Below, in pieces: positions 11,729-37,081 of a stretch of 44,140 bases of DNA (positions within the stretch are counted from its first letter, which is position 1; each line of letters starts with the position of its first letter). Origin of the DNA: Oscillospiraceae bacterium (lineage in GTDB: Bacteria; Bacillota; Clostridia; Oscillospirales; Oscillospiraceae). Both the position numbers and the translations under genes were made by a program. The notes under the pieces are model-generated. The model was not told the origin of the DNA. It did not search any database and worked only from the letters and a program-made list of their open reading frames with translations. The stretch is taken from contig JAFVWL010000077.1 of the NCBI GenBank assembly GCA_017501695.1, positions 1 through 44,140 on the forward strand, read 5' to 3'.

Positions 11729-13081
11729 ATGGCCGGAAAAAGAGTATTTATCGGATGGACCGGAGAGAGCAGGTATATTGCCGACAAAATCGGCCTTCAA
11801 CTGAATCAACGGGGGTTTGAAACCATCGTAGGCGGCGAGGACAAGGATTCCTCCATGTTTGTAGGCACCACGGTCATCGACCAAATGAACCGCGCCGAGA
11901 TGGCGATCCTGCTGTTCGAGCAGCGGTCCCCGGAAAAAGGCGGCGGTGTCAGCGCCAATGTGATGTTCGAGTGGGGTTATCTGCTGCATAAGCTTTCCAA
12001 ATCCAACAACATCCGCATTTTCCTTCTGGATATGGACGACAAGCTTCTGCCCACGGATGTACGGGGCTGTTGGTTCTGCCCAATCAAAAAGCCTGCCGCC
12101 GGCACACCGGAGGAAAAGGAGCAGATGTATGGCACAGTGGCGGAGGAGATCGTTCAGAAATTCCTGGAGCGCAACGCTGCCGACGGCTTCATCGGCGACA
12201 AGCTGGATTGCTTTGACCGGTGGGAGGAAACCAAGCAGCTTATTTTGAACTATAACGGCAACGAGCGGATCTCCTACAGGCTGATCTACGGTCTGCAAAT
12301 GTGCATTTACACCGGTAAATCCAAAATCATTTATGACAAACTTCAGGAGATCCGCAGCCAGTCCGGCATTCATCCGGAGCTGAAGCAGGTGATCAACTGT
12401 GCCATGGCCTGCCTGAACGTGTTTATCACCACCCACAATCTGACCACCAATCTGTCTGAAAACCAATTTTTGATGTTAATGGAAGATCTTCAGGTGCTCC
12501 GGTTGGATCAGGTCAAGGATCCGGACCTGGCTGCCTGGTGCAACATTTTCCGCCAGGATAAAATGGAGCTGTGTTTTGAGTTCTACGCCAACAGTCTGTC
12601 CGGCGAAGAGAAACACAGCGCCCTGCACAACGCGGTGCAGAAATGCCAACGGATTCTGCGTATGCTGGACAAGCAGATCGCCGCAAACAGTGCTGACAAA
12701 TATTTCGCCATGCTGTATCAGGGCTTCACCCACAGGAATCTGTATCTGCTCTATAAGGCATTGGAAAAGCTGAACGATCCGGATATCAAGCCCGAAGACA
12801 TCGCGTTCCAATGCGCCGAGTCCCTGAAATACCGGGAAGCTCTGTATTTTTACTATAAGGATTCCCACAGCCCCCGGGCAATTGCCATGGACTATATCAC
12901 CCAGGAATACCTTCTCGGTCTGGTGGAGCAATACCAATTCGAGCTCGACCCGGATTTGAAGGAGGATATGAGCATCATGATCCAGGGCATCCTGCTTCGG
13001 GTTCGGGAGAATTATGATATCCGCAACATGATCTACTCCCGGATCATGGAAGCGGTTTCCGGAATTCCCGAGATCAAATAG
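11729..13081 (+). CDS. TIR-like domain protein with helical C-terminal domain
   Basis: A 450-residue protein. Residues 1-125 match the TIR-like nucleotide-binding fold found in bacterial immune effectors: VFIGWTGES at the first strand, GTTVIDQMNRAEMAILLF in the middle, and NVMFEWGYLLHKL with the candidate catalytic Glu81, equivalent to the NxxFExG of known TIR NADases. Residues 150-450 are almost all helical, rich in Tyr and Leu, without a domain I recognise, possibly TPR-like. The start has GGAG seven bases upstream. The gene has its own promoter and terminator and no cyclase or SIR2 partner, so it would act alone. A role in defence by NAD depletion is inference from the domain. Confidence 0.75.
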   Translation: MAGKRVFIGWTGESRYIADKIGLQLNQRGFETIVGGEDKDSSMFVGTTVIDQMNRAEMAILLFEQRSPEKGGGVSANVMFEWGYLLHKLSKSNNIRIFLLDMDDKLLPTDVRGCWFCPIKKPAAGTPEEKEQMYGTVAEEIVQKFLERNAADGFIGDKLDCFDRWEETKQLILNYNGNERISYRLIYGLQMCIYTGKSKIIYDKLQEIRSQSGIHPELKQVINCAMACLNVFITTHNLTTNLSENQFLMLMEDLQVLRLDQVKDPDLAAWCNIFRQDKMELCFEFYANSLSGEEKHSALHNAVQKCQRILRMLDKQIAANSADKYFAMLYQGFTHRNLYLLYKALEKLNDPDIKPEDIAFQCAESLKYREALYFYYKDSHSPRAIAMDYITQEYLLGLVEQYQFELDPDLKEDMSIMIQGILLRVRENYDIRNMIYSRIMEAVSGIPEIK

Positions 13082-24738: not shown

Positions 24739-25510
24739 CATCGAAAAGATCACCTCGGACCCCCAGGATCGGCTTTTGCTGGCCAAGGTATGGGACAAGA
24801 TCCAGTCCGGTATCCGGAAAAACATTCTGTCCAACACCTGCTTCCTCTCCCCCCGGGAGATGGAAATGGCACGTTATCTGTTCGGAGACTTGGACGGACT
24901 CCACAGCTTCGGCGGTTACGGCGAAGCCGAGCGAAAAATGCTGGTATATCTGCCGGAGTACCTGGACGAAACAGCTCTGGAGTCGGAGGATGGGCCTCTG
25001 GTATGCCTGCGGGCGGAATTCTATCAGGGGGACAGCCCTTCCCACCGGGATTTTCTGGGTGCCCTCATGGGGGCCGGCATAGGCCGGGAGACCATCGGCG
25101 ACATCTGTGTTGGCAAAGGAAGCTGTGATTTCTTCGTCACGTCGGAGATCGCGCCTTATATCGAACAGAATTTCCTCTCCGCGGGACGGACCCATCTGCG
25201 GCTGAGCCGGATCCCGGTTTCTGAGGTACAGGTCCCGGAGCCGGAAGTGAAGATCATCAAGGACACGGTGGCTTCCCTGCGGCTGGACAGTGTGATTTCC
25301 TCCGGCTTCCGCATCGGACGGAGCCTTGCTGCCCAGTACATCGCCGCCGGAAAAGCCGCCATTGACGGCCTGCCCTGCGAAAAGCCGGACAAGGCCGTAT
25401 CGCAGGGAGCAAAGCTTTCGGTTCGGGGGCTGGGCAAAATCAAGCTGGAAACCGTCAACGGCCAGACGAAAAAAGGCCGGATTTCCATAGTCATCCATCG
25501 ATATATGTGA
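24725..25510 (+). CDS. ylmH: YlmH-type RNA-binding protein with S4 domain
   Basis: A 261-residue protein. The N-terminal two thirds match the YlmH fold (CFLSPREMEMARYLF, HRDFLGALMGAGIGRETIGDICVG, YLFGD-like parts) and the last 80 residues are an S4 RNA-binding domain (LRLDSVISSGFRIGRSLAAQYIAAGKAAIDG). YlmH acts on ribosomes, in rescue of stalled 50S subunits, and is often next to cell-division genes; here it is not in a dcw-type cluster. The frame is open 39 bases further upstream, but MDRSNIEKITS at 24725 fits the family start. Confidence 0.88.
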   Translation: MDRSNIEKITSDPQDRLLLAKVWDKIQSGIRKNILSNTCFLSPREMEMARYLFGDLDGLHSFGGYGEAERKMLVYLPEYLDETALESEDGPLVCLRAEFYQGDSPSHRDFLGALMGAGIGRETIGDICVGKGSCDFFVTSEIAPYIEQNFLSAGRTHLRLSRIPVSEVQVPEPEVKIIKDTVASLRLDSVISSGFRIGRSLAAQYIAAGKAAIDGLPCEKPDKAVSQGAKLSVRGLGKIKLETVNGQTKKGRISIVIHRYM

Positions 25511-25519
25511 GGTATTGTT

Positions 25520-25726
25520 ATGAATATGAACGAAGTCATCGCCCGGATCAACGAACTGGCGAAAAAGGCAAAAACGGAAGGGCTCACCGAGGAGGAGCTG
25601 GTGGAGCGGGACAAGCTGCGCCGGATCTACATCGATTCCGTCAAGGGAAACCTGATCGGCCAGTTGGAGCATACCACCATCGTCTACCCCGACGGCACCC
25701 GGAAAAAGGTGACCAAAAAGCAGTAA
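25520..25726 (+). CDS. DUF896 (YnzC-like) small protein
   Basis: A 68-residue helical protein with the family pattern INELAKKAKTEGLTEEE and RRIYIDSVKGNLIGQL. Members such as B. subtilis YnzC are small two-helix proteins of unclear role, some linked to the SOS or sporulation regulons. It lies 9 bases after ylmH and ends the operon. GAGG is found upstream; the start could also be two codons later. Confidence 0.9.
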   Translation: MNMNEVIARINELAKKAKTEGLTEEELVERDKLRRIYIDSVKGNLIGQLEHTTIVYPDGTRKKVTKKQ

Positions 25727-25731
25727 GGTGC

Positions 25732-25765
25732 AAAAAGCAGAACCGAAAACCGGTTCTGCTTTTTA
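25732..25765 (+). terminator. Terminator of ylmH operon
   Basis: AAAAAGCAGAACCG / CGGTTCTGCTTTTT hairpin with an A-rich loop and a T tail. Confidence 0.9.
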
Positions 25766-25769
25766 CATT

Positions 25770-26222
25770 ATCAATTTCGAAGGGCATCCTTAATGCAGTC
25801 CATGCAATACATGGCATTGGGATCCACATAACAGCGGCAAGGATCAGCAGTACGCTGAGTAAAGTTTTGAAACTCTTCATAACAGCGCAGTCATCCTGAT
25901 TGCAGGTATTCAGGAGGCCCGGCAGGGTCTCAGCAGTCGCAAAATTATCCTGGATCTTGGCCTTGGTCGCGTTGACCTTGCCGTTAAAGCTCTGTACCCC
26001 GGGAATCCGGCGGGACATTTCCGAAACCGCTTCCTTCAAAAACGCGTGCTCATCTCAATAGCGTAAAACTTTTAGGCAACCGGAAAAAGCTTCTCGACCT
26101 ATGATTATCCCCGACCCGGGCACTACAATCTCCAAGGATGTGCAATCACAAAAGGCATCGCCACCGATCCGTTCCATGCTCTTCGGCAAAACAATGTGTC
26201 CATTTTTGGGACAGGGGGGTTG
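25770..26222 (-). pseudogene. Remnant of a BspA-type leucine-rich-repeat protein
   Basis: On the minus strand the frame from 26222 reads GHIVLPKSMERIGGDAFCDCT, then SLEIVVPGSG and REAFSGCLKVLRY, which is the BspA/LRR_5 repeat pattern (AF..C..L..V..P.S...IG). It has an in-frame stop just upstream (26223) and no start codon, and another stop after LRY (26055). The same frame then stays open as an unrelated-looking stretch with one hydrophobic segment (LLSVLLILAAVMWIPM). I read this as a decayed gene; the downstream part could be a separate small membrane protein instead. It marks the left edge of the accessory island. Confidence 0.5.
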
Positions 26223-26229
26223 TTATAAT
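26221..26229 (+). promoter_or_regulatory. Extended -10 promoter of left island cluster
   Basis: TG-T-TATAAT lies 63 bases before the start of the first gene of the plus cluster, inside the LRR remnant. The -35 region is weak. Confidence 0.5.
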
Positions 26230-26292
26230 GGGCATATAAACCCGGCCGCGTTATCGGCCACCCATTTTACTACACTTCTGGAGGTAATGATT

Positions 26293-26850
26293 ATGATGAA
26301 GAACGCGATTTCCCAGTACGTCCGCACCATGTTTAAGGAGAGCTGGGACGGTGAACTGACCGTGGGCGACGAAAATGATCAGTATGACTGCCCCGTGGAA
26401 TGGGACGAGCAGACCGCTGAAATGCTGGCACAGCGGTGCGGCGAACTGATCGGTCATCTGACGGAGCTGTCCTGGCAGTATGACAAGCTGCTGACAGAAA
26501 CCCGCCACCTTACCAAAGCGCAATTTGAGGTCTGGAACACCTACCTGCGCCCTTTCCCCGACCACGGTTTGGATATGGAAGCCCTGCAGTTCATCTGGGA
26601 GAAGTTCGAAACCGATGCGCGTGTAACGGAGGAAGAACGGGCGCTTGCCGACCGGTATGTCTGCTGGTTTGAAGAAAACGCACTGGAGCGTCTTCCCGCC
26701 AATCGCTGCGACCCTATTCAGCTGATCAGCCGTGCCAGGCGGTACAGCAAGCTTATTCGGCTGAACGCCCCGGCCATTGTTCAGGAAAATGAAGCAAAAC
26801 GGCTGGCAGAAGAATTTGTACTATATCACTGTATGATGAAAAAAATTTGA
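26293..26850 (+). CDS. Unknown acidic helical protein
   Basis: A 185-residue, largely helical, acidic protein (for example VGDENDQYDCPVEWDEQTAE, LAEEFVLYHCMMKKI at the end). The open frame starts much further left, but GGAGG at 26280 with an eight-base gap to the ATG, together with the promoter position, fix the start here; two further ATG codons lie within nine bases. I recognise no domain. It is the first gene of the plus-strand island cluster, and the next gene's -35 element overlaps its stop codon. Confidence 0.7.
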   Translation: MMKNAISQYVRTMFKESWDGELTVGDENDQYDCPVEWDEQTAEMLAQRCGELIGHLTELSWQYDKLLTETRHLTKAQFEVWNTYLRPFPDHGLDMEALQFIWEKFETDARVTEEERALADRYVCWFEENALERLPANRCDPIQLISRARRYSKLIRLNAPAIVQENEAKRLAEEFVLYHCMMKKI

Positions 26851-26875
26851 ATAAATTTGAATACTGTGTTACAAT
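26847..26875 (+). promoter_or_regulatory. Promoter of double winged-helix gene
   Basis: TTGAAT and TACAAT are separated by 17 bases, 20 bases before the ATG. The -35 overlaps the stop codon of the preceding gene. Confidence 0.65.
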
Positions 26876-26895
26876 GACAAAAAAGGAGGATTTTT

Positions 26896-27762
26896 ATGGA
26901 AGAAGTTTGGAAATGTCAATGGGAGACCATCCCCGGTGACGGGGAACATGTTGAGTATTTCTCCACCGAAGCTGCAGCCAAGCAGGCCATGCGGCAAAAA
27001 ATTGTGGAAAGTATCGACTTGAAAGAATACACCACTGATCTGGATCCCCGGGCCGCACAGTTTTTGGATAACTATCTGTCAGACCCGCTGTTCCCCAGAG
27101 GTGAGGCGGATGTGCCGGAAGAATACGAAGAACCGGAGCACGGTGAGTTGTATCTGGATCCCGGATTTATCACTTGGAACTACCCGTATGATGCATATCC
27201 CAAGTTGGATACCAATCTGGTCTTGACAGATAGGAATTACGGTGAGTACCGCTTCATGTTTTACTATATGTATCCGGAAGAGGCAACCGGTAACGGCGTC
27301 ACAGAGCTAAGCATCACCATTGCTTCCCACGTTAATTACGGCAACAGCGCTTACCCGCTGTTGGTTTGGAAGGTGCTTTGGAATGAGCCTCAGACCCAGG
27401 AGCAGCTTTCACGGCGTATTCTCAACGAGCTGGGTACAGCTATTGAACGAAAATCCATCGGCAGGCACCTGAATCTTTTGAAGAAACTGGGATATCCGGT
27501 ACACCACGGTCCGGATGGGTATTATCGGGAAGGGGAATTTGGTGAGCCGGAGTCTGGTACCCAATACACGCGCAGTGCCTTTCCGCTGCTGATTCTGGGT
27601 GTGCTGGATGATACCCCCAAAACCCAAGCGGAAATCATCCGGGAGGTTCAGGCGAAATACGGTGCCAAGATCGGCCGTAAGGCGGTGAAAAGGCATTTGG
27701 AACTGCTGGAAGCGCTGGACTTCCCCATTGAATGCAAACCGGATGGCTACTGTTTAAGGTGA
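26896..27762 (+). CDS. Protein with two tandem winged-helix domains
   Basis: A 288-residue protein. Residues 152-211 and 228-288 are two copies of one winged-helix unit: YPLLVWKVLWNEPQTQEQL ... GRHLNLLKKLGYPVHHGPDGYY and FPLLILGVLDDTPKTQAEI ... KRHLELLEALDFPIECKPDGY. This resembles the WYL-associated or DeoR-type HTH, but no WYL domain follows. The N-terminal 145 residues (VWKCQWETIP, STEAAAKQAMRQKI, YPKLDTNLVL, ELSITI) are similar in layout to the whole protein at 29286-29867. AAAGGAGG precedes the ATG. It may be a DNA-binding regulator of the island (inference). Confidence 0.72.
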   Translation: MEEVWKCQWETIPGDGEHVEYFSTEAAAKQAMRQKIVESIDLKEYTTDLDPRAAQFLDNYLSDPLFPRGEADVPEEYEEPEHGELYLDPGFITWNYPYDAYPKLDTNLVLTDRNYGEYRFMFYYMYPEEATGNGVTELSITIASHVNYGNSAYPLLVWKVLWNEPQTQEQLSRRILNELGTAIERKSIGRHLNLLKKLGYPVHHGPDGYYREGEFGEPESGTQYTRSAFPLLILGVLDDTPKTQAEIIREVQAKYGAKIGRKAVKRHLELLEALDFPIECKPDGYCLR

Positions 27763-27815
27763 GCTTTATAAGTAATAAAAGATACACAATAATTTTTTGA
27801 TAGGAGATTGATTAT

Positions 27816-28703
27816 ATGCAGTATGGCGGAATTACACTGAATCACGTTTTGGCTTTTCAAATCCGAATTATGATGGGCAATCAGTATGGCAGGCTGGTAA
27901 GTGCCGTAAAAAACGAAGATAAAGACGGCATCATTATTGCTTGTCTTCGTCTGGGGTGGAATGACGCCTTTCGGCATGTCAGCAAAAACAAATCAGATGC
28001 GGATATTATATCCGAATGTGCGAAGCAGAGATGGAATTCACCGTTTAAGAGGCGGAAACCCGGTGTAGTAAAAGTTGACGACCAGGAAAAAGACCAGATT
28101 ATCGTCGAGATCTGTCGTTCTCTGTGCGAAGAGTTTAAGGAGTACGCAAGTAAAAGTAGCACAGAAGACCGCCATGCCTACATCCATGAGAAGATGGCTT
28201 GCAAAGATTTTGTCAACAAGTTTGCCGTAATCAAAGTAGTCGATCCGAAGCAGAGCGACAAATATCTTTGTTTTGGACACATTCAAAAGCTGTTCAACAT
28301 GGCGGTCAAGCTTTACCTCTGTCTGAAAATTTGTGCCGAGGAACAGAATAATCACGATCTTCAGATCATCCTGCAATTTGGAGCGACACCGCAGAAGAAT
28401 GTTTTCTTAAAACCCGAAATGTTTACTTTGTTTAGCAGCAACGATACTTCTGCAGATTGTCCCATAGATCGCTATATTCTGGAAGCCATTGACCGGGAGA
28501 TCGATGAGCAGGATGCAGATCTTACTGCAATAAATCCAGAAAGACGGAATCGGGATTCCGCAAAGTTCGCTTCTATTGCATGGAGTAAACTTAACGCACA
28601 AAGCGACGCAGCGTATATCGATATTCAAAATGAGATTGCGGCACTGCAGGCAGATTCCGGAAAGAGCAATCTCTGTTTTGACTTTGAACATTGGAATTCA
28701 TAA
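27816..28703 (+). CDS. Unknown protein with GHxQKLxNMxxK motif
   Basis: A 295-residue protein, mostly helical. The most distinctive parts are GHIQKLFNMAVKLYLCL (154-170) and CPIDRYILEAI (215-225), a pattern I associate with a family of uncharacterised bacterial proteins (QKxxNMxxK...PxDxxI), without known function. The first 80 residues are basic (RRKPGVVK) and contain two Trp-rich helices. TAGGAG lies before the ATG. It is read in the same direction as its neighbours, 53 bases after the winged-helix gene. Confidence 0.62.
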   Translation: MQYGGITLNHVLAFQIRIMMGNQYGRLVSAVKNEDKDGIIIACLRLGWNDAFRHVSKNKSDADIISECAKQRWNSPFKRRKPGVVKVDDQEKDQIIVEICRSLCEEFKEYASKSSTEDRHAYIHEKMACKDFVNKFAVIKVVDPKQSDKYLCFGHIQKLFNMAVKLYLCLKICAEEQNNHDLQIILQFGATPQKNVFLKPEMFTLFSSNDTSADCPIDRYILEAIDREIDEQDADLTAINPERRNRDSAKFASIAWSKLNAQSDAAYIDIQNEIAALQADSGKSNLCFDFEHWNS

Positions 28704-28726
28704 CACTAAGGTGGAGGCAGCAGATT

Positions 28727-29236
28727 ATGGAAGAAAAGAAAAGCTACCGCGCTCTTTTTAGGCAAAAGAAGGATGAAGTACATAGCCACGAAGAGATCAA
28801 GCTGGCATTTGAGGACAGTTTTGCTGTATGTTTTACCTTGGTAGAAGATCATACCCCCGGCGCAAGAATGCAGCTTTTCGGCCAGATCTGGGAGATCAAT
28901 CCCGATACCATAATTACAGAAGCCGATCTCTTTGTTGTGCAATCCGATTCTGTGGCAGCAATGGATCAGTACCTTGTGATCAGCAAGAACGGAACAAAGG
29001 AAAGCAACGCCCGTCTGGCGCAGCGCCTGGAGGAATCCGGATTCATCACGTCCCCCTGGTATATCAAGAGTGAAAAACACGGCGGCATCAAAACTTGCTA
29101 TCGGTTTGCTTCGGAAACCCAGCAGAAAGCCGTTGTCCACAAGGCCAACCTTCTGATCGACGGAAACAACCTATTGCTGTCCGTACGGCACTTGTCCACT
29201 GCCGACCATGCGCAAATGAATGCCTCCCAGGAATAA
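28727..29236 (+). CDS. Unknown island protein
   Basis: A 169-residue protein of mixed alpha/beta character (FAVCFTLVEDHTPGARMQLFG, LIDGNNLLLSVRHL). A frame extending 12 codons upstream overlaps the ribosome binding site GGAGG, so the ATG nine bases after it is the start. The C-terminal half (LAQRLEESGFITSPWYIKSE) looks like a small winged-helix, which is only a guess. It is the last gene of the plus cluster and is followed by a strong terminator. Confidence 0.62.
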   Translation: MEEKKSYRALFRQKKDEVHSHEEIKLAFEDSFAVCFTLVEDHTPGARMQLFGQIWEINPDTIITEADLFVVQSDSVAAMDQYLVISKNGTKESNARLAQRLEESGFITSPWYIKSEKHGGIKTCYRFASETQQKAVVHKANLLIDGNNLLLSVRHLSTADHAQMNASQE

Positions 29237-29242
29237 TGACTA

Positions 29243-29284
29243 TGAAAACCCGCCCCTGTGCATACACACCGGGGCGGGTTTATG
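29243..29284 (+). terminator. Terminator between the two convergent island clusters
   Basis: AAACCCGCCCC / GGGGCGGGTTT form an 11-base stem with a 14-base loop. It has T tracts only on the plus side, but may act in both directions as it lies between two stop codons 50 bases apart. Confidence 0.75.
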
Positions 29285-29285
29285 G

Positions 29286-29867
29286 TTATGAATAGAGTGT
29301 AAGCTGGTCAAGTTCCATCGTTAAGTCAATATACAACTCTGAAGAAACGCACGACCATTGCCCAAACATATCGTCTATGTAAAGGTAGTAATCTTTTTCT
29401 TCCTGCATAGACAGAAAATTGGTATCAATTTTAGGATTGTAGCCGTTCACTACTCCCTCACCGGTACCACGGATGGTAATGGAATCACGGGCAAAATCCG
29501 CTTCTATATCGGCATTGAAATACCGGCCGAAAGGAATGCGGATGTCAACATCCTTTCCTTCAAAAATACAAGAGAAGGTATTGAGCAAAGCTACCGCTAT
29601 TTTCCCTGTGAACCACTCCGGCATCGGATCATCTATTTCTCCGTCTTCACGCTTGATCATATCCATATATTTTTCCATATGAATCATACTGCCGTAACCG
29701 TCAAACATCTCATTGTGAGAAAAAGCAAACTCTCGCAGCTTTGCGCGCAAAGCCGCCCGTGCTGTTTCAAAATCATCAAAAGTGAAGGTGCTGGTTACCA
29801 AATCCTCTTCTCCGTAACAAACATTTGGCAGTGATGTTCTGATGGTTAATTTCCATTTTGTACACAT
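29286..29867 (-). CDS. Unknown island protein related to the winged-helix protein's N-terminus
   Basis: A 193-residue protein. The order of conserved parts, KWKLTIRT (4-11), FETARAALRAKLREF (33-47), YNPKIDTNFL (143-152), YYLYIDDMF (160-168) and SELYIDLTMEL (176-186), parallels that in the first 145 residues of the protein at 26896-27762. It has an insert of acidic residues and PEWFTGKIAVALLNTFSC in the middle. AAGGAGAT precedes the ATG, which overlaps the preceding gene's end by 22 bases. No function is known. Confidence 0.65.
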   Translation of the reverse strand: MCTKWKLTIRTSLPNVCYGEEDLVTSTFTFDDFETARAALRAKLREFAFSHNEMFDGYGSMIHMEKYMDMIKREDGEIDDPMPEWFTGKIAVALLNTFSCIFEGKDVDIRIPFGRYFNADIEADFARDSITIRGTGEGVVNGYNPKIDTNFLSMQEEKDYYLYIDDMFGQWSCVSSELYIDLTMELDQLTLYS

Positions 29868-30091
29868 AGTAGAATCTCCTTACTTTTTCTATAGTCAACA
29901 ATGGTAGCTTTATTACAGGAGGAATATTCATTTTCCTCTGTGATGCCGTCATATTCCCAGCCGCAGGTTGGGCAGATGAAATAATCATCCAGTGTTTCTT
30001 TACCGCATACGGGGCAAGTGACAATTTTGAATCCCAATTCCCGGTATTCCTGGGTAGCGCGCAGGTCAAAGGGTGTGGACTGCTGTGTCAT
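29846..30091 (-). CDS. CPCC-type cysteine-rich zinc-ribbon protein
   Basis: An 81-residue protein with CPVCGKETL (Cys26, Cys29) and FICPTCGWEYDG (Cys40, Cys43), matching the Cys-rich CPCC family, where CPCCGxxTL and ICPVCxWEDD are separated by about ten residues. It should bind one zinc. GGAGGAG lies 8 bases before the ATG; a longer frame upstream lacks such a site. It overlaps the genes on both sides (26 and 22 bases), so the three are translated from one transcript. The family is often found as single small genes near toxins or in variable regions; its role is unknown. Confidence 0.75.
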   Translation of the reverse strand: MTQQSTPFDLRATQEYRELGFKIVTCPVCGKETLDDYFICPTCGWEYDGITEENEYSSCNKATIVDYRKSKEILLCVQNGN

Positions 30092-30728
30092 GGGGCATCT
30101 CCTCCGATATTTTGATTTGATAAGAATGGAGAACGGCAATAAAAATCTGCCGCTCGGTTGCTTTCAGTGCCTCGAAGATCGGCTGCAGGTCAACGGCTTC
30201 GTCCAGCCGCTCCAGGAAATTATAAAGGAAGAGGGGGCGTGTATCCCCCAGTAGGGAACGCCGCTGGGTCTCCTTCAGGAAAAGCTGAAACCTTCGAAGC
30301 GTTTCATCGCTTTCACCAAGTGTATCAAAGCTGCCTGATTTGGATCTATTGTCAAAAATGTGGGTGGTATTGGATCCGTTACGGAAGCGACGTTTGTGGA
30401 TTGCTTTTACCCTTTCGGCGGAATGGGCAGACAAGCCGGATTTGGTATCATCGACGCTGTGTACCCAGACGGCTTTTTCTTCTTTACTGAACCTTGCGCC
30501 AAGCGTGCAGGATAAGCCATCCGTCCAGACAACAGCAGCCTTGACTTCGTATTCTTCCCGTTCGCAGAAGCAATTGTCAGGCAGGCCGCCAAACAGTCCT
30601 GCCAAAGCCAGAAGAAAGCCTTCGGCATCCCGGCCCTGGAGGAAATTGATCTGTGTGCTTGGCTGGATTTCCAGCATACGGTCTGTTCTGCATTCCCTGA
30701 CCAAAGCGGATGTAATTCGATTGTGCAT
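30066..30728 (-). CDS. Degenerate P-loop ATPase-like protein
   Basis: A 220-residue protein. INFLQGRDAEGFLLALAGLFGG (near 25-45) lies where ABC/SMC-type ATPases carry GPNGSGKST, and LGESDETLRRFQLFL, then RPLFLYNFLERLDE and RQIFIAVLHSY resemble the signature, Walker B and D-loop, and H-loop regions. The Walker A Lys and the Walker B Asp-Glu pair are absent (LFLYN), so it should not hydrolyse ATP. The alternative is an unrelated protein with chance similarity. The start is the ATG after AGGAG; two upstream start codons lie in the promoter. It is 46 bases downstream of the PolC-like gene. Confidence 0.55.
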   Translation of the reverse strand: MHNRITSALVRECRTDRMLEIQPSTQINFLQGRDAEGFLLALAGLFGGLPDNCFCEREEYEVKAAVVWTDGLSCTLGARFSKEEKAVWVHSVDDTKSGLSAHSAERVKAIHKRRFRNGSNTTHIFDNRSKSGSFDTLGESDETLRRFQLFLKETQRRSLLGDTRPLFLYNFLERLDEAVDLQPIFEALKATERQIFIAVLHSYQIKISEEMPHDTAVHTL

Positions 30729-30744
30729 ATTACACTCCTGTTTC

Positions 30745-30773
30745 ATGTTATCACGAGAGATTATCCGTGTCAA
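30745..30773 (-). promoter_or_regulatory. Internal promoter of minus island cluster
   Basis: On the minus strand a perfect TTGACA and a weaker TAACAT are separated by 17 bases, immediately after the stop codon of the PolC-like gene. It would let the three downstream genes be expressed without the PolC-like one. Confidence 0.6.
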
Positions 30774-30774
30774 C

Positions 30775-32976
30775 TTAGACTACTTTGTAAAACTGCTCCG
30801 GGTAGTAAAGCGCAAACCATGCAAGACTGAATGCCAGCTTCATATAGGTTGCGGCATGTGCCTTGGCGGACAAATAGCGGATTTTCTGCATGGATCGAAC
30901 GTACCACTCCGGTACACCGGTATCCAGCAGCTTTTGTGCCAGCTTCGGATATTTGCGGAAACGGCCCGTACGGACGATATACATTGTGATATATGCGGTT
31001 TCCCGGTCTATACCGTATTTCTGAAGTGTCAGGAAAACATCATCCCGGTCACCGATCAGATAACTGAAGGGATACTCCTTTATCAAATGCTCTGCGTTGT
31101 TATCCCATACATGGATTCCATGGGACATTCCAAACAGCCGCACCAGATCGCTGAAGTTTTCCGGCTGGATCTGTTCCAGCCGCTTTTTCATTTCGTCATT
31201 GATAAAGCCCGGCGGGACGGAGCTGTTCCCCTCCAGGAAAAGCCTATACACTTCCGGGTCACTGTAATCAATGTCCTCCGGTTTGACTCCGGTCAGCCGA
31301 AACAGCACACTCAGCCGCATATAGTCACTATGTCCCAGAAGGCTGATCTTCGGCAGGGCATCCTTTATGCTGTGGTAATCCATATGCGTAGCCTGATCGA
31401 TGCCATACATCGGTTTATCCAGTTTTCTTATTGGGGTAACATCCTCAAATTCCATCCCCTCCGGCAACAGAACGATGCCGCCGGGGTGCCTGCCCTCGCT
31501 GCGTTTCACACCATTCAATTTGGAAAGAATCTGCGCATACCGTTCATTGGAAAACACTTCGCCGGTCTGTTCCACATATGCTTCCACATATTTCTCTGCC
31601 GGATAACGGGCAATACTTCCCACAGTGCCTGCATATGCCACCCGTTCCTTACCAAGAAGCTCAGCCAAAAACTGCCGGGCTCCCGGCATTGCCTCTGCGG
31701 ATATATTGATTTCGATATCCGGAGCCATCCTGCCATCCAATCTCATGCAGGTCTCATAAGGAATATTGTGTCCATCGCCGCCCATTCTTCCTCCACAGCA
31801 GAGGCAGGTCTTGGAAGGAAGATCATAGCCGGAAATGGCATCCACATTGAAATCCGTATAACCGCATCCGGAACAGTGATAGTGGGCAGGTAAAGGATTT
31901 ACATCGGAGATCTCCAGCAGATAAGCCACCAGAGAGGAGCCCAAAGTTCCCCGGCAGCTTGTGACTTCTTCCTTTTCGTGCAGGAATCGAACGATGTGGC
32001 CAGTCAGCAGATATAATGATGCATACTGCCGTTTTTTCAGCAGCCTCAGCTCCGTTTCCAACCGCTCCACAATTCTCTCCGGCGGCTGGGGTCCGTAAAG
32101 GGCATGGAGCTTTTCTATGCTGAGCCGTCGAACCTCCTCATTGGCATTGGGCAGCGTAAAGCGCGGATATGAACGGTCCATGATTGGGTGGACATCTTCG
32201 ATTCTGTCTGCAATCAGATTGGTGTTGGTGACTACCACCTCGTATGCCGCCTCCCGGCCCAGATAAGAGAATTCATCCAGCATTTCTTCTGTTGTCCGGA
32301 AATGAGTGGATCGGATTTCCTCCGCTTTCCCATAAGTATTGGAAAGAATTTTTTTGCAGATCCGGTCCTCCGGAACGATATAGTGGCAGTTTCCCACCGC
32401 CACCACAGGAATGCCGCTTGCTTTTCCGATGGCATACAACTGCAGATTGATTCCCTTTTCCTCAGGATAATCGTAGGGGACCAGAGCAATGTAGTCATAG
32501 CGCTTTGCGATCTCGGCCTGCTGCTGGGGTGTGTCCTCCGAAGACATAACCGAAGCTTTCAGTTCTGTCATCAGGGCACAGTCACATCCGCAAAGCAGGT
32601 TTTTTCTGTTATCTTCAATGACTTGCCAATCTGCCACCTTACAGTTTCCAAGTTTTCGCATAGAGGAGAGAATGCGGTAAAGGCCCCTGAGACCCTCTTG
32701 ATTTTTAGCAAGCAAGGATATTCCGTATTCAGTATCATCTTTCAAGTAATGTACTTTCGCACCGTAGATTACCTTAAGTTTATTTCCGTATCTGCGCTGA
32801 CAGTCCTCCAGTTCAGGAAAATCCTGTACCGAATTCAGGTTGGTGACAGCAACTGCCCTGTGTCCCAGCTTAACAGCTGTTTCAATCGCCTCTCTGGGGG
32901 TTATCACTGAGATATCATCCGATACCGTGGTGTGCAGACTCAGCTCAACGCGTTCCAGTGTTGCATCATTCATCAT
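30775..32976 (-). CDS. PolC-like protein with lost catalytic residues
   Basis: A 733-residue protein similar in order to PolC-type DNA polymerase III: PHP domain (1-230), thumb/palm entry with SCRGTLGSSLVAYLLEISDVN (340-360), zinc site (Cys368, 371, 391, 394), and fingers (RHPGGIVLLPE, LSHG-like MSHGIHVWDNN, PEWYV, KAHAATYMKLAFSLAWFALYYPEQF). It lacks the N-terminal OB and exonuclease domains and stops at the end of the fingers. The palm motif PDIDLNFSGE of PolC is PDIEINISAE (Asp420 kept, Asp to Glu422), and KLDILGHDD is KISLLGHSD (third Asp to Ser545). PHP motifs LHLHT and TDH are LSLHT and TNL. It should not polymerize DNA. AGGAGG precedes the start, and a TATACT -10 lies at 33004-33009. 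Confidence 0.85.
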   Translation of the reverse strand: MMNDATLERVELSLHTTVSDDISVITPREAIETAVKLGHRAVAVTNLNSVQDFPELEDCQRRYGNKLKVIYGAKVHYLKDDTEYGISLLAKNQEGLRGLYRILSSMRKLGNCKVADWQVIEDNRKNLLCGCDCALMTELKASVMSSEDTPQQQAEIAKRYDYIALVPYDYPEEKGINLQLYAIGKASGIPVVAVGNCHYIVPEDRICKKILSNTYGKAEEIRSTHFRTTEEMLDEFSYLGREAAYEVVVTNTNLIADRIEDVHPIMDRSYPRFTLPNANEEVRRLSIEKLHALYGPQPPERIVERLETELRLLKKRQYASLYLLTGHIVRFLHEKEEVTSCRGTLGSSLVAYLLEISDVNPLPAHYHCSGCGYTDFNVDAISGYDLPSKTCLCCGGRMGGDGHNIPYETCMRLDGRMAPDIEINISAEAMPGARQFLAELLGKERVAYAGTVGSIARYPAEKYVEAYVEQTGEVFSNERYAQILSKLNGVKRSEGRHPGGIVLLPEGMEFEDVTPIRKLDKPMYGIDQATHMDYHSIKDALPKISLLGHSDYMRLSVLFRLTGVKPEDIDYSDPEVYRLFLEGNSSVPPGFINDEMKKRLEQIQPENFSDLVRLFGMSHGIHVWDNNAEHLIKEYPFSYLIGDRDDVFLTLQKYGIDRETAYITMYIVRTGRFRKYPKLAQKLLDTGVPEWYVRSMQKIRYLSAKAHAATYMKLAFSLAWFALYYPEQFYKVV

Positions 32977-33072
32977 GAATTCCTCCTGTTTTTATCTGAC
33001 AACAGTATACACCATTGCCTGAGACAAAAAAGGGACACCACAAGAACTGGCAAACTCCCGTTTTCCCGTAAA

Positions 33073-33159
33073 ATAACGATAGCCCGATTTAACGATTGCA
33101 TCGGCCAATTCTGATTGGTAATCAGATGCAATTTCGTAAACCAGGCTATTATTCGTTAT
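33073..33159. repeat. Long imperfect foldback element
   Basis: The two arms, each 30 to 35 bases, are inverted copies with a few gaps: ATAACGA, TAGCC, TTTA-CGA and TTGCATC on the left pair with the same blocks on the right. The 22-base loop holds a further small stem CCAAT/ATTGG. It lies in the leader region upstream of the PolC-like gene (minus strand), 100 bases from tRNA-Ser. It could be a structured RNA, a regulator binding site or a remnant of a miniature element. Confidence 0.6.
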
Positions 33160-33217
33160 CTATTTGCTGAATGCGTGACAAAAACGCATTAGAATCCAAC
33201 TCTTTCAGAACAAATAA

Positions 33218-33256
33218 AAGAACCTACTGCTGAATTTTTGTATCAACAGTAGGTTT
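33218..33256 (-). terminator. Terminator of tRNA-Ser (TGA)
   Basis: AACCTACTG / CAGTAGGTT stem with a 17-base AT-rich loop; on the minus strand it is followed by CTTTTATTTG. Confidence 0.7.
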
Positions 33257-33261
33257 TAGTT

Positions 33262-33350
33262 TGGCGGAGAGTGTGAGATTCGAACTCACGGTGGGTTTCC
33301 CCATCACCAGTTTTCAAGACTGGCTCCTTAAACCGCTCGGACAACTCTCC
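33262..33350 (-). tRNA. tRNA-Ser (anticodon TGA)
   Basis: An 89-base class II tRNA on the minus strand: acceptor GGAGAGT / ACTCTCC, anticodon stem CCAGT / ACTGG region with loop containing TGA, a long variable arm (GATGGGGAAACCCACC), T loop TTCGAAT and an encoded CCA. It has a strong promoter. Confidence 0.96.
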
Positions 33351-33361
33351 ATGTGGGGTAA

Positions 33362-33390
33362 ATAATAACATTTCCAACTCAAATTGTCAA
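33362..33390 (-). promoter_or_regulatory. Promoter of tRNA-Ser (TGA)
   Basis: On the minus strand TTGACA and TATTAT are separated by 17 bases, 11 bases before the tRNA. Confidence 0.8.
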
Positions 33391-33428
33391 GGGACATCCG
33401 CCGGAGTATAAAATCCCCAGGATTTGAC

Positions 33429-33457
33429 TTGACAAACGCAGTGGGTTGTGCTAGAAT
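33429..33457 (+). promoter_or_regulatory. Promoter of tRNA-Ser (GCT)
   Basis: TTGACA and TAGAAT are separated by 17 bases, 30 bases before the tRNA. It diverges from the promoter of the other tRNA-Ser. Confidence 0.8.
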
Positions 33458-33487
33458 ACTTTGGCACAAACAAATAGACTTTCATTC

Positions 33488-33579
33488 GGAGTGATACCCA
33501 AGAGGCCGAAGGGGCTCCCCTGCTAAGGGAGTAGGCCGTCAAAAGCGGCGCGAGGGTTCAAATCCCTCTCACTCCGCCA
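33488..33579 (+). tRNA. tRNA-Ser (anticodon GCT)
   Basis: A 92-base class II tRNA: acceptor GGAGTGA / TCACTCC, anticodon loop CTGCTAA (GCT), long variable arm (TAGGCCGTCAAAAGCGGC), T loop TTCAAAT and encoded CCA. Confidence 0.96.
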
Positions 33580-33584
33580 TCAAG

Positions 33585-33620
33585 AAAACGCCTGAAACAG
33601 TAGTTTCGGGCGTTTTTTCT
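33585..33620 (+). terminator. Terminator of tRNA-Ser (GCT)
   Basis: AACGCCTGAAAC / GTTTCGGGCGTT stem with an AGTA loop, followed by TTTTTC. Confidence 0.88.
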
Positions 33621-33697
33621 TTGTATTATACTGTTTCTATAACTTTCTTTATTCGTTTATAGCAAACGAATTTTCGGGTTAAAGAATCAAAAATGCT

Positions 33698-33740
33698 AAC
33701 AAAAATCCCCCTCCCGGAAAAGTCCAGGAGGGGGATCATT
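33698..33740 (-). terminator. Terminator of holin-like gene
   Basis: ATCCCCCTCC / GGAGGGGGAT stem; on the minus strand it is followed by TTTTTG. Confidence 0.8.
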
Positions 33741-33742
33741 GT

Positions 33743-34143
33743 TTAATCGATCCGCTGCTCCTCCGGGTCGGGAGGGGCGGTGGGCTCGATTTCGGGTGTG
33801 TAAGGTTCGTCGGGGGTGATGTCCGTGGCGGTGTCGCCGGCGGTGTTGAACATGGCCAGGCTGGCGGTGTGGAGCTTGACCAGCCACTCGAGGACGGATG
33901 CTCCCATTTTCACGGCGTTCTCCAGGATGGAGCCCAGCTCCGTGATGATGTACCAGGCCAGGACCAGGGGCAGGATCAGGCCGGGCCAGTCCATGCCGAT
34001 GGGCAGATTGGCACAGATCACGGCCATAATGCCGTCGGCGATGGCTGCCACCCATGCCATGATGCCCTGCCAGCCCAGGACGGCCCCAGGGCCATGAAGA
34101 GGGCGGCGATGGTGTCCTTGAAGATCATCAGATTATCTTCCAT
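33743..34143 (-). pseudogene. Phage holin-family protein, frameshifted
   Basis: The minus strand starts at an ATG after AGGAGG and reads MEDNLMIFKDTIAALFMALG, then leaves frame at a G4 run near 34084. A single added G would join it to AVLGWQGIMAWVAAIADG and the rest, which holds two hydrophobic segments and an acidic, Pro-rich C-terminus (ITPDEPYTPEIEPTAPPDPEE). This matches the layout of the phage holin family found near amidases in clostridial prophages, but no other phage gene lies here. It is a recently broken domesticated gene or a sequencing error in a homopolymer. Confidence 0.6.
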
Positions 34144-34160
34144 ATTGTTTTCCTCCTATG

Positions 34161-34470
34161 TAGAAATGATGTCATTCCAATGGCGACAGCCCGTGGGAAT
34201 CTCCAGCACCGACTGAAATGACCAGCCATCCAATTAACATCGAACATCTACGATGGACTTTGGTCGACAGGTTTCGCAACCGTCCACCAGGAGATTGCCA
34301 CGCTGCTTCGCAGCTCGCAATGACATAGTTTTCGGCAGCTGTTTGCCACAGAATACGGGATTGCCAGGAGATGAATTGCCCGTAGGGCAAGAGAGACCTC
34401 CCTGGGGTGCGGGTGTGGACACAGGTCCATAATTGGTCGCGGGTCATTCCTGAACATCCGAAGAATATTT
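34161..34470. repeat. Non-coding region with dispersed repeats
   Basis: No gene with a ribosome binding site is seen from 34144 to 34542. It contains a GATTGCCACG...CTCGCAATGACA unit with an internal GCTGCTTCGCAGC hairpin (34288-34324), a partial second copy (GGGATTGCC at 34357), a TTGCCC-GTA-GGGCAA hairpin (34376-34390) and the promoter of the methyltransferase. Confidence 0.5.
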
Positions 34471-34480
34471 CACTTCTTGT

Positions 34481-34509
34481 TTGAACATTTTATTGTTTTG
34501 TGGTATGAT
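34481..34509 (+). promoter_or_regulatory. Promoter of methyltransferase gene
   Basis: TTGAAC and TATGAT are separated by 17 bases, 33 bases before the ATG. Confidence 0.7.
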
Positions 34510-34531
34510 CAATTCGACAAATTTGAATTTG
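34507..34531 (+). repeat. Imperfect direct repeat, left copy
   Basis: 25 bases containing GACAAATT and AATTTG that match 20 of 25 bases of the copy at 35337-35361 on the other side of the methyltransferase gene. Confidence 0.55.
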
Positions 34532-34542
34532 GAGTTGCATTT

Positions 34543-35334
34543 ATGGACAGAAAAGCGATACTTGAAGATTATTATAATGAGTGGAATGAAGATGACCGAC
34601 TTCTCTCTCGTTTTGGACAGGTTGAATTTTTAACCACTATTCGTTTTGTTGAGAAATACCTTAAGCCAGGAATGAAAATCTTGGAGGTCGGGGCAGGCAC
34701 AGGTCGATACTCCCACTACTTTGCCAGAAAAGGATACACAGTTCATGCGGTTGAATTGGTGGAGAGGAATATTGAGGGTTTCAAAGAAAAGACTTTGCCT
34801 GGTGAAGATGTCACAATTGTCCAGGGTGATGCGGTCAAGCTCCACATGCTGAAAGACAATGAATATGACATTGTTCTTCATTTAGGTCCGATGTACCACC
34901 TTTCTGCTGACACCGAGAGAAAAGCAGCGGTAAGTGAAGCACTTAGGGTGACAAAGCCTAATGGAACGGTTTTTATGGCATATATCTTAAACGAAATGAC
35001 TGTAATAAACTATTTCTTTAGAAATGGTCATATCAACGAAGCAGAGGCAAGAGAAAAGATTATCTCTTCAAATTGGCGATTTAAGGAAAACAAGAAAAGA
35101 CACCTTTCCTTTTACCGAATTGAAGATATCAATGCTCTTATGAGTGGCTTTGATGTACATCGTCTTCATTTAGTAGGAACAGAAATGATATCGGGAGCAA
35201 TGAGAGAATTATTGTTGTCAATGTCTGATGAAGAATTTGCTTGTTATACCGAATACATTTACTCCATCTGTGAGCGTGCCGACATGATAGGATTGTCTGG
35301 TCATTTGCTCGATATATATGAAAAGAAACAATAA
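34543..35334 (+). CDS. Class I SAM-dependent methyltransferase
   Basis: A 263-residue Rossmann-fold methyltransferase. Motif I is ILEVGAGTGRYS (46-57), followed by the acidic end of strand 2 (VHAVELVERNI), the DAVKL motif and the YDIVLHLGPMYHLS motif IV, as in small-molecule methyltransferases of the UbiE/Methyltransf_11 or _25 group. The frame opens 22 codons upstream, but GGAG eight bases before this ATG sets the start. The gene is much richer in A and T than its surroundings (codons ending in A/T), a sign of recent transfer. Its substrate is unknown. Imperfect direct repeats flank it. Confidence 0.88.
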   Translation: MDRKAILEDYYNEWNEDDRLLSRFGQVEFLTTIRFVEKYLKPGMKILEVGAGTGRYSHYFARKGYTVHAVELVERNIEGFKEKTLPGEDVTIVQGDAVKLHMLKDNEYDIVLHLGPMYHLSADTERKAAVSEALRVTKPNGTVFMAYILNEMTVINYFFRNGHINEAEAREKIISSNWRFKENKKRHLSFYRIEDINALMSGFDVHRLHLVGTEMISGAMRELLLSMSDEEFACYTEYIYSICERADMIGLSGHLLDIYEKKQ

Positions 35335-35336
35335 AA

Positions 35337-35361
35337 GAGCAGTTGGACAAATTCCAATTTG
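35337..35361 (+). repeat. Imperfect direct repeat, right copy
   Basis: Right partner of the repeat at 34507-34531; it begins three bases after the methyltransferase stop and contains a GACAAATT-CC-AATTTGTC palindrome. Confidence 0.55.
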
Positions 35362-35536
35362 TCGAATACTTCCGCAGGAACGATACCGAGCGGGTCAGGG
35401 CAGTAACGAAACGCTCTGCACCGAGCACGCATTGTCCGCGGCGACTCGCCGCCAAATTCCATTTTTTCGAACAGTGTGGCATATTCCTGGGGATATTTTT
35501 CTCAATTCTGCTCCACCTTGCTTTTTGATAGCATAA
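35362..35536. other. Non-coding stretch, possible dispersed repeat
   Basis: After the AT-rich methyltransferase the base composition returns to GC-rich. A plus-strand frame is open (EYFRRNDTERVRAVTKRSA) but has no start signal. A small CCGCGGCGACTCGCCGC palindrome is seen. I cannot assign a gene. Confidence 0.3.
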
Positions 35537-35562
35537 CGCCCTCCGGTAGGATCCGGAGGGCG
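35537..35562 (-). terminator. Hairpin after membrane protein gene
   Basis: CGCCCTCCGG / CCGGAGGGCG stem with a six-base loop, eight bases after the minus-strand stop codon. The T run is poor on both strands, so it may be a weak terminator. Confidence 0.55.
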
Positions 35563-35570
35563 TGATTTAT

Positions 35571-35969
35571 TTACAGAGTCATGGTATTCAGGAACCAGAT
35601 CAAAAGGGGCAGCACCAGGGTGAAGATGCTGATGAGCCAAGGATAGATGGTCCTGCGGGAACAGAACATAAGGATCAGGGCGATCAAAGTCAGGGCCAGG
35701 GGGCCATAGACCGCCGTTTCCCGGGAGATCATCTGGGCAAACTCGCCGGTGGACTGGATATCAAAGCCCACCACCTCCGGCAGCTCTTCCATGTTCTTCT
35801 TCGCCAGGTCCAGGGCGTAATACAGCACCGGCAGTGCCATGAATATTTTACGCAGGCGGAAGATCCAGTCCCACACCGCCCGGCAGACCGTGCCAAAGCG
35901 TTCCGCGCCGCCGCTGACGATCCGGCAGAAGTTCTGCCATCCGTTCATTTGATTTTCCTTGTTTTCCAT
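35571..35969 (-). CDS. Small membrane protein
   Basis: A 132-residue protein with an N-terminal soluble part and about three hydrophobic segments (KIFMALPVLYYALDL, VYGPLALTLIALILMF, WLISIFTLVLPLLIWFL). The open frame begins 13 codons earlier, but GGAGG six bases before the chosen ATG and the promoter position set the start. No family is recognised. Confidence 0.7.
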   Translation of the reverse strand: MENKENQMNGWQNFCRIVSGGAERFGTVCRAVWDWIFRLRKIFMALPVLYYALDLAKKNMEELPEVVGFDIQSTGEFAQMISRETAVYGPLALTLIALILMFCSRRTIYPWLISIFTLVLPLLIWFLNTMTL

Positions 35970-35996
35970 AAGCCACCTCCGGCTGATACTTGTCAT

Positions 35997-36025
35997 ATCA
36001 TACCACAAATCTCAATAAGATGCAA
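35997..36025 (-). promoter_or_regulatory. Promoter of membrane protein gene
   Basis: On the minus strand TTGCAT and TATGAT are separated by 17 bases, 28 bases before the ATG. Confidence 0.65.
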
Positions 36026-36123
36026 GAGGACAAACAAATTGTCACAAATTGTTAATCAGTCCATTTTATTGGACAATGTATGTTGTATGCTAAGGCCAGA
36101 TCAAACAAAAGGAGGACTTCACC

Positions 36124-36321
36124 ATGAAAAACACCGCCGCTATCCGCAGACCCAATTTTGCAGCCTGCCGCCGCCGGGCTTATATCCGGACCAACCATAA
36201 TCCCTTCCCCAATGCAGCCCGGGCAGGTTACTTCCTGGAAAAGGTCCTGGACGGAGCCCTGGCTGCCGCCACCACCCTGGCTGTGGTGGTGATCCTGCTG
36301 TTCGTGGTTACGGTTTTCTGA
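36124..36321 (+). CDS. Small membrane protein with basic N-terminus
   Basis: A 65-residue protein: an Arg-rich N-terminal half (RRPNFAACRRRAYIRTNHN) followed by a single C-terminal membrane helix (LAAATTLAVVVILLFVVTVF). AAAGGAGG nine bases before the ATG is a very good binding site, which is the main evidence that the gene is real. Its last 14 bases overlap the end of convergent coaX. The function is not known. Confidence 0.65.
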   Translation: MKNTAAIRRPNFAACRRRAYIRTNHNPFPNAARAGYFLEKVLDGALAAATTLAVVVILLFVVTVF

Positions 36322-37081
36322 CGTTATCCCGGTACAGGGCCGCCAGGCCCTTGACCAGCAGGTCCTTGTCATAGATCATGGGGGTCTTGCACATGGGGAT
36401 CACAAACTTGGCGATGCCGCCGGTGGCAACGACCGTAGTCTTGCAGCCCAGCTCCGCCTCCATCCGCTCCACCATTCCATCCAGCATACAGGCGGCGCCC
36501 ATCATAATGCCGCTGCGCATACAGTCGATGGTATTACGGCCGATGGCCTTCTTGGGCTGGTCCAACTGCAGGCCCGGCAGCAGTGCGGTCCGCTCCGTCA
36601 GGGCATCCAGAGAGATTTTGACGCCGGGAGCGATCATACCGCCAATGAGGGCACCGTCCTTGTTCAGGACGATCATGGTAGTGGCGGTGCCCATGTCCAC
36701 CACGATCATAGGGGGCTTATGCTCCCGCAGGGCCGCCACGCAGCCCACCACCAGATCCGCGCCGGTCTGGGCAGGATTCTCAATGAGGATGTTCAGACCG
36801 GTCTTCAGGCCGGGCCCAACCACCAGCGCTGTCTTGCCCGTGAGTTTCTTGACAGCAGTCTGCATGGAGTTCAGGACCTGGGGAACCACAGAGGCGATAA
36901 TGGTGCCCTCGATGTCAACGGACTTGATTCCATAAACCTCCAGGATCATTTTCAGGTCGATGCAGTATTCGTCCGATGTTTTGGTAGCATCCGTCCGCAG
37001 TCTCGCTTCAAAAACAATGTCATTGCCTTCCACACCGCCCAGGACGATGTTGGAATTACCGACGTCGATGGTCAGGATCAT
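36308..37081 (-). CDS. coaX: Type III pantothenate kinase
   Basis: A 257-residue cytoplasmic kinase, the first step of coenzyme A synthesis (pantothenate to 4'-phosphopantothenate). The ASKHA-fold motifs are IDVGNSNIVLGG (5-16, phosphate 1), PAQTGADLVVGCVAA and VDMGTATTMIVLN (phosphate 2), and ATGGIAKF near the end. Length fits the family. GGAGG lies before the ATG. The ATG overlaps the stop codon of the phosphoesterase gene upstream, so translation is coupled. Confidence 0.95.
   Translation of the reverse strand: MILTIDVGNSNIVLGGVEGNDIVFEARLRTDATKTSDEYCIDLKMILEVYGIKSVDIEGTIIASVVPQVLNSMQTAVKKLTGKTALVVGPGLKTGLNILIENPAQTGADLVVGCVAALREHKPPMIVVDMGTATTMIVLNKDGALIGGMIAPGVKISLDALTERTALLPGLQLDQPKKAIGRNTIDCMRSGIMMGAACMLDGMVERMEAELGCKTTVVATGGIAKFVIPMCKTPMIYDKDLLVKGLAALYRDNVRKP

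Follow-up and report, generated by a model that had tools for sequence, protein, structure and literature searches.

Within the 44,140-nucleotide stretch of Oscillospiraceae DNA analysed here (the window) lies a gene for a short relative of the polymerase PolC in which catalytic residues have been replaced, and the question that it raises is whether such a protein, here called dPolC, has been kept for some other purpose or is a gene in decay. The reading preferred here, to which we give a probability of roughly 0.7 on the sequence evidence, is that dPolC is a kept, non-catalytic accessory derivative of PolC that belongs to an accessory cassette. That it has been kept appears well supported; its paralogy, the loss of the catalytic triad across a clade of four members, the constraint, the gene linkage and the odd base composition were each obtained by calculation.

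The short PolC paralogue and its catalytic sites

The open reading frame reported by the first-pass annotation, which gave no strand, is present on the minus strand (32976 to 30775), where it is read from an ATG at 32976, with a good ribosome-binding site (AGGAGG) just 5′ of this ATG, to a stop at 30775. Its recognizable parts are as follows.

30775..32976, minus strand: dPolC, a short PolC paralogue without the polymerase triad, 733 aa (from sequence, profile and alignment)
32383..32952, minus strand: degenerate PHP part, residues 9-198, with 3/9 metal residues kept (profile and alignment)
31795..31875, minus strand: zinc site C368, C371, C391 and C394, all kept (alignment)
31711..31719, minus strand: triad positions 1 and 2, residues 420-422, D I E where PolC has D I D (alignment)
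31342..31344, minus strand: triad position 3, residue 545, Ser where PolC has Asp (alignment)
30787..31290, minus strand: fingers, residues 563-730, with R644 and R669 kept (profile and alignment)

The PHP, palm, zinc and fingers parts are sequence kin of those of PolC, with matches to the NCBIfam PolC model PRK00448 (E 1.3e-177) and to Geobacillus PolC (PDB 3f2b; E 4.2e-131). The protein scores under the curated equivalog cut-offs of two PolC models (592.9 of 873 bits for PRK00448 and 547.9 of 1043.45 bits for the second), in the case of PRK00448 because it is short. The chain begins at the PHP part and ends just past the fingers, and the N-terminal, OB and DEDDh exonuclease domains and the (HhH)2/clamp-binding tail are missing; the profile match stops at position 1298 of 1445. 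The first-pass annotation was thus right that the exonuclease and OB domains are absent and that the protein ends after the fingers, but its list was incomplete, as the N-terminal domain and the last ∼145 PolC positions are gone too. The genome of the window also encodes a 1457-aa PolC frame and a 1231-aa DnaE-like frame, and dPolC is therefore an extra copy; full-length PolC frames are present in genomes G000, G096, G125, and G132.

The polymerase triad reads D,E,S in dPolC and D,D,D in 39/39 reference PolCs (PDIDLN has become PDIEIN, and KLDILGH has become KISLLGH), which bears out the earlier claim that two of the three catalytic Asp residues are changed. The references were hand-picked from more than 100 PolC frames, 31 being used in one alignment and 39 in later analyses. 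A displaced catalytic Asp, an alternative that the first-pass annotation had itself raised, is rejected, since the residues flanking the triad align without a shift in phmmer, in MAFFT and against a profile HMM of the 39 references, and the profile built from the references alone reads PDIEIN and KISLLGH in unshifted positions. The PHP metal site is degenerate, as had also been noted, with 3/9 residues remaining (H15, C133, and H198). PHP metal residues are often inactivated in other C-family groups. The claim that the zinc cysteines and the fingers are both well conserved stands for the cysteines, of which 4/4 are kept, but not for the fingers: 25/38 invariant columns are kept there, against 99/160 over the whole protein, so that by this count the fingers as a block are not clearly better kept than the rest, and it is individual residues (R644 and R669, for instance) that stand out.

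PolC forms without an exonuclease are described as a clostridial minority, found in Clostridia and Negativicutes, in passages of a survey of C-family polymerases (PMC3919608), and dPolC resembles them in having a core without the inserted exonuclease domain. Those collected here are long, however (991-1410 aa, some of them ended by the contig), and those in the reference set keep D,D,D, whereas dPolC is without the triad and has lost its N-terminal, OB and C-terminal parts as well.

Relatives of dPolC and the constraint upon them

Relatives were sought at the level of the genus (136 genomes), the family (400) and the order (295), in sets that overlap and that include many incomplete genomes; counts of short PolCs in the genus and family sets are lower bounds. 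The nearest relatives among the matches listed are L125 (genome G325, another genus of the same family; 731 aa), with 44-46% identity to the dPolC of the window, and L117 (G096) and L118 (G125), both of the same genus as the window, with 47 and 48%. The four proteins form a clade with support of 100/98 in a first tree, which held 10 short-PolC rows (with the triad intact in two, L119 and L126), and of 99/97 in a second tree made without L122 and L126. A full triad is found in none of the four: L125 has D,E,G, L117 has T,D,I and L118 has T,E,I. The third Asp, kept in 39/39 references, is lost in 4/4 clade members (S, G, I and I). The dPolC of the window and its three nearest relatives all retain R644, D645, R669, Y701 and the zinc cysteines. 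In L117 and L118 the PHP part is missing and the alignment has a gap opposite window residues 450-492, a segment that may correspond to most of the thumb, the part gripping duplex DNA; the PolC thumb is described as splitting the palm in the passages seen of PMC12592400.

The first-pass annotation had allowed that close homologues might carry a complete active site, the present copy being a random mutant of an intact gene. This is rejected, as the three nearest relatives among the matches listed also lack the full triad; the nearest triad-intact relative among those matches, L141, is 34% identical and lies outside the clade. That a complete PolC was recently interrupted by a stop or frameshift is unlikely, since L125 shares both the start and the end of the protein. 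As to homologues with like substitutions and like neighbours, for which it had proposed to look, triad loss is found in L125, L117, and L118 and shared neighbours in L117 and L118, but the identical combination D,E,S occurs in no relative of the clade.

Purifying selection acts on the closest pair, L117 and L118, as calculated from their sequences: at 62% identity over 490 codons, dN is 0.25 and dS 1.93 (dN/dS ∼0.13), with 0.27, 0.20, and 0.50 differences per site at the first, second and third codon positions. The distribution is similar in two pairs of intact reference PolCs that are 42 and 46% identical (0.44/0.36/0.66 and 0.43/0.33/0.74). For most of the pairs compared, the window and L125 among them (dN 0.49, dS 2.22), dS is close to saturation. 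Across eight dead short PolCs, 32/32 zinc-cysteine positions are retained, and fully kept columns amount to 19 of the 78 invariant columns that are filled in all eight, so that the chance of four given columns all being kept is 0.0027. The low dN/dS and the retention of the zinc cysteines therefore argue against simple decay of the clade, though not of every copy.

More distant short PolCs are varied. Both D,D,D and 5/9 PHP residues persist in L141 (G556, of another family; 817 aa). L119 (G132) also keeps D,D,D but is missing residues 622-686, part of the fingers, and the coding sequence of L104 (G043), with the triad E,Y,E, is divided between two frames. All three triad columns are gaps in L120 (5868-7208) and L121 (9963-11309). 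These two, 59% identical to each other, represent a second type of short PolC from which the triad region is absent, and are located 3′ of a WYL-domain regulator and of proteins with no known domain among those scanned; upstream of L121 is a gene that, by eye, resembles a Y-family polymerase. In L122 (G032:C30, 4044-6179, plus strand; 712 aa) a DnaB_C domain (Pfam PF03796, E 8.3e-27) is fused to zinc and fingers parts that resemble those of PolC. In the second tree a branch with support of 92/90 separates all 39 references from all nine short forms, and a single origin of the short forms is therefore possible; a grouping of the seven short forms other than L120 and L121 is not rejected (p-AU 0.335). 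The branching order of the short PolCs, several rows of which are long, is tentative.

No relative was found in scans of viral contigs. Matches occurred in 79 phage and 37 plasmid records, all below 60% identity, and three of the four inspected were full-size PolCs of 1273-1451 aa with PDIDLN, the fourth being L126; a phage or plasmid gene was on these grounds rejected. L126 (NZ_CP143322.1, Cetobacterium somerae plasmid p3, 3768-6512; 914 aa), annotated as hypothetical, is PolC-like (26%), keeps D,D,D, lacks the zinc cysteines and has a DnaB-like gene nearby. Neither F235 nor F295 of L118 gave a match when searched against plasmids.

The cassette and the linked nuclease

The genes around dPolC run, on the plus strand, F249, F288, F295, F181 and, on the minus strand, dPolC, F235, F97, F193; those counted as cassette genes belong to protein families common to the window, L117, and L118 in the comparison. 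The features of this region are listed below.

25501..36000: stretch of low G+C (0.45-0.51) that holds the cassette, ends approximate
26101..26850, plus strand: F249, with homologues in the L117 and L118 cassettes
26896..27762, plus strand: F288, with weak HTH matches and homologues in the L117 and L118 cassettes
27816..28703, plus strand: F295, which occupies the place of another family in L117 and L118
29846..30139, minus strand: F97, a Cys-rich CPCC protein with a homologue beside F235 in L118
30066..30728, minus strand: F235, 220 aa from an ATG at 30728 (235 aa for the open reading frame from a TTG at 30773), with homologues adjoining dPolC in L117 and L118
33262..33579: two tRNA-Ser genes beside dPolC (33262-33350, minus strand, and 33488-33579, plus strand)

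Clear homologues of F249, F288, and F235 (E 1e-30 or better) surround dPolC in both L117 and L118. F295 of the window has only 23% aligned identity to the family found in L117, L118, and L119, and was not found by BLAST or by search. F235 is encoded in 3/136 genus genomes, adjacent to dPolC every time, and in 1/400 family genomes, that of the window itself; the searches made did not find it at L125. By eye F235 resembles a worn RecF/SMC-type ATPase, a likeness that gained no confirmation from Pfam (no match for 3/3 members), from the PDB (no ABC ATPase among 10 weak matches) or from a single-sequence model (pLDDT 34). The PADLOC library of 2023 gave no match for dPolC, F235, F249, F295, and F181 and a weak one for F288 (E 0.0023). 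A chimeric assembly is unlikely, as cassettes with homologous genes occur in other genomes, where the flanking genes differ among those read.

G+C is 0.45-0.51 at 25.5-36 kb and 0.52-0.61 elsewhere in the window, and GC3 is 0.44-0.62 in seven genes of the cassette region, 0.36 in a methyltransferase gene adjoining the cassette genes and 0.70-0.82 in seven flanking genes. The low G+C, the odd GC3, the tRNA-Ser genes and the sharing of the cassette with L117 and L118 together suggest horizontal acquisition, and the cassette with dPolC was probably acquired in this way. No direct repeats of at least 20 bases marking island ends were found at 25500-36500, and no integrase was seen by Pfam among 31 chosen open reading frames of the window. 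Beside the tRNA-Ser genes is a holin-like gene (33743-34060, minus strand; Pfam PF05105, E 2.6e-09), perhaps a phage remnant, and outside the low-G+C stretch the window encodes a TIR-domain protein of the CAP12/Pycsar effector type (11729-13081, plus strand; Pfam PF10137, E 3.5e-08).

Related short PolCs are adjoined by genes for DUF2779 proteins (PF11074), which are presumed to be 3′–5′ exonucleases with a PD-(D/E)XK domain according to passages of PMC3985635; unlike these relatives, the window gene has no such neighbour. DUF2779 is encoded near four related short PolCs and is present as a remnant near a fifth, the copy of L125, at 1.8 kb. It was found in 5/136 genus genomes, in three of them 2.0-5.2 kb from a short PolC and in the other two with none seen on the stretch read. 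These three fall among at least four genomes whose short PolC is of the type seen in the window or in L119, a co-occurrence (3 of 4 genomes) with a hypergeometric probability of 9.6e-5 when genomes are treated as unrelated. DUF2779 motifs, as we name them, are intact in five copies, and the DUF2779 protein of a relative matches PADLOC Cas4 models (best E 4e-8). DUF2779 was not found in the genome of the window, and the linked nuclease is therefore not required. At L141 (4256-8502), where the Asp triad is intact, the DUF2779 nuclease gene lies 0.3 kb from the short PolC gene, which may encode an active mini-polymerase whose exonuclease is a protein of its own. No link between DUF2779 and PolC was found in the passages of PMC3985635 or in literature listings.

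Possible roles and rival explanations

The proposal that the protein was recruited for another job and is not simply decaying is supported: four open frames without a full triad, a dN/dS of ∼0.13, the zinc cysteines of eight dead forms and the neighbours shared in L117 and L118 all speak for it. The particular jobs suggested are less well supported. Under the reading preferred here, dPolC would be an accessory paralogue of PolC trimmed to the PHP, palm, zinc and fingers parts, of a lineage that lost both polymerase and PHP catalysis and was nevertheless kept. The zinc region and certain fingers residues would bind single-stranded template, the replication fork or a replication partner, and dPolC, as a non-catalytic adaptor, would steer or gate the other proteins of a small cassette, which in related copies includes the predicted 3′–5′ exonuclease joined to a Cas4-like nuclease (DUF2779). 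The fusion of zinc and fingers parts with DnaB_C in L122 is counted in favour of a kept adaptor, and a role in repair or defence may be envisaged, but this specific adaptor mechanism is doubtful. The earlier idea that the protein senses primer ends is weakened by the gap at 450-492 in L117 and L118, read as thumb, and by the gapped triad columns of L120 and L121; with the thumb or triad region lost in its kin, binding of a single strand or of a protein partner is likelier.

It is unlikely that dPolC is instead a functionless remnant of a mobile element that once carried an active short PolC and whose copies now stand at differing stages of loss. Catalysis has indeed been lost diversely (D,E,S; T,E,I; E,Y,E and the split frame of L104; part of the fingers in L119; the triad columns in L120 and L121), L141 still has the triad, a DUF2779 remnant lies beside the L125 copy, and some copies do decay, as the division of L104 over two frames indicates. 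Against this stand the frames of 493-733 aa that remain open in the four divergent members of the clade, the low dN/dS in L117 and L118, the retention of all zinc cysteines and the good ribosome-binding site in the window.

A still-active specialized polymerase, such as a translesion extender using D420, E422, and another carboxylate, is very improbable, given that the third Asp is S, G, I or I with no Asp shifted in, that neither the first Asp nor the thumb stretch is present in L117 and L118, and that the clamp-binding tail is missing. The window and L125 do keep D420 with E at 422, the D-to-E change at the second Asp being a mild one, which counts against a non-catalytic reading, and the B-family polymerase Dpo2, predicted to be inactive, proved active (PMC8764526, as seen in part). 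A dominant-negative mimic would block or slow replication by competing for template or partners, either with the host PolC or with the replicases of phages or plasmids, and a low-G+C stretch beside tRNA genes and the retention of R644, R669, and Y701 in all four clade members would suit it; as the N-terminal, OB and clamp-binding parts are gone and no PADLOC family matches dPolC or F235, it is very improbable.

The kept, non-catalytic derivative of PolC has parallels in other polymerase families, inactive forms being described in the Y family and PolX in the passages seen of PMC12926913. ImuB and other inactivated Y-family polymerases, as well as polymerase-dead PolX, work in a like way, as polymerase homologues in an accessory role without catalysis; ImuB differs in its polymerase family and has ImuA and DnaE2 as partners, and PolX, of another family again, keeps its PHP site, which dPolC has lost too. 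Those passages hold no mention of a PolC with a dead polymerase site, and literature searches on dead, extra or short PolCs returned no paper describing such proteins, as judged by titles and the starts of abstracts. Tentatively, the short C-family PolCs carried with the DUF2779 nuclease may be a pseudoenzyme family in which polymerization was lost stepwise and which now serves a new clostridial cassette for repair or defence as an adaptor that binds DNA or forks. Such a family would have escaped notice because C-family sequences lacking the Asp triad were discarded in at least one survey: the triad is called invariant or absolutely conserved there, after sequences lacking it had first been removed (PMC3919608, as seen in part). 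If dPolC belongs to a clade of dead PolCs under selection, the main bacterial replicase too would have been turned into a non-enzyme, which would allow a test of which PolC parts are useful apart from DNA synthesis, and the linkage points to an undescribed set of genes around DUF2779 nucleases.
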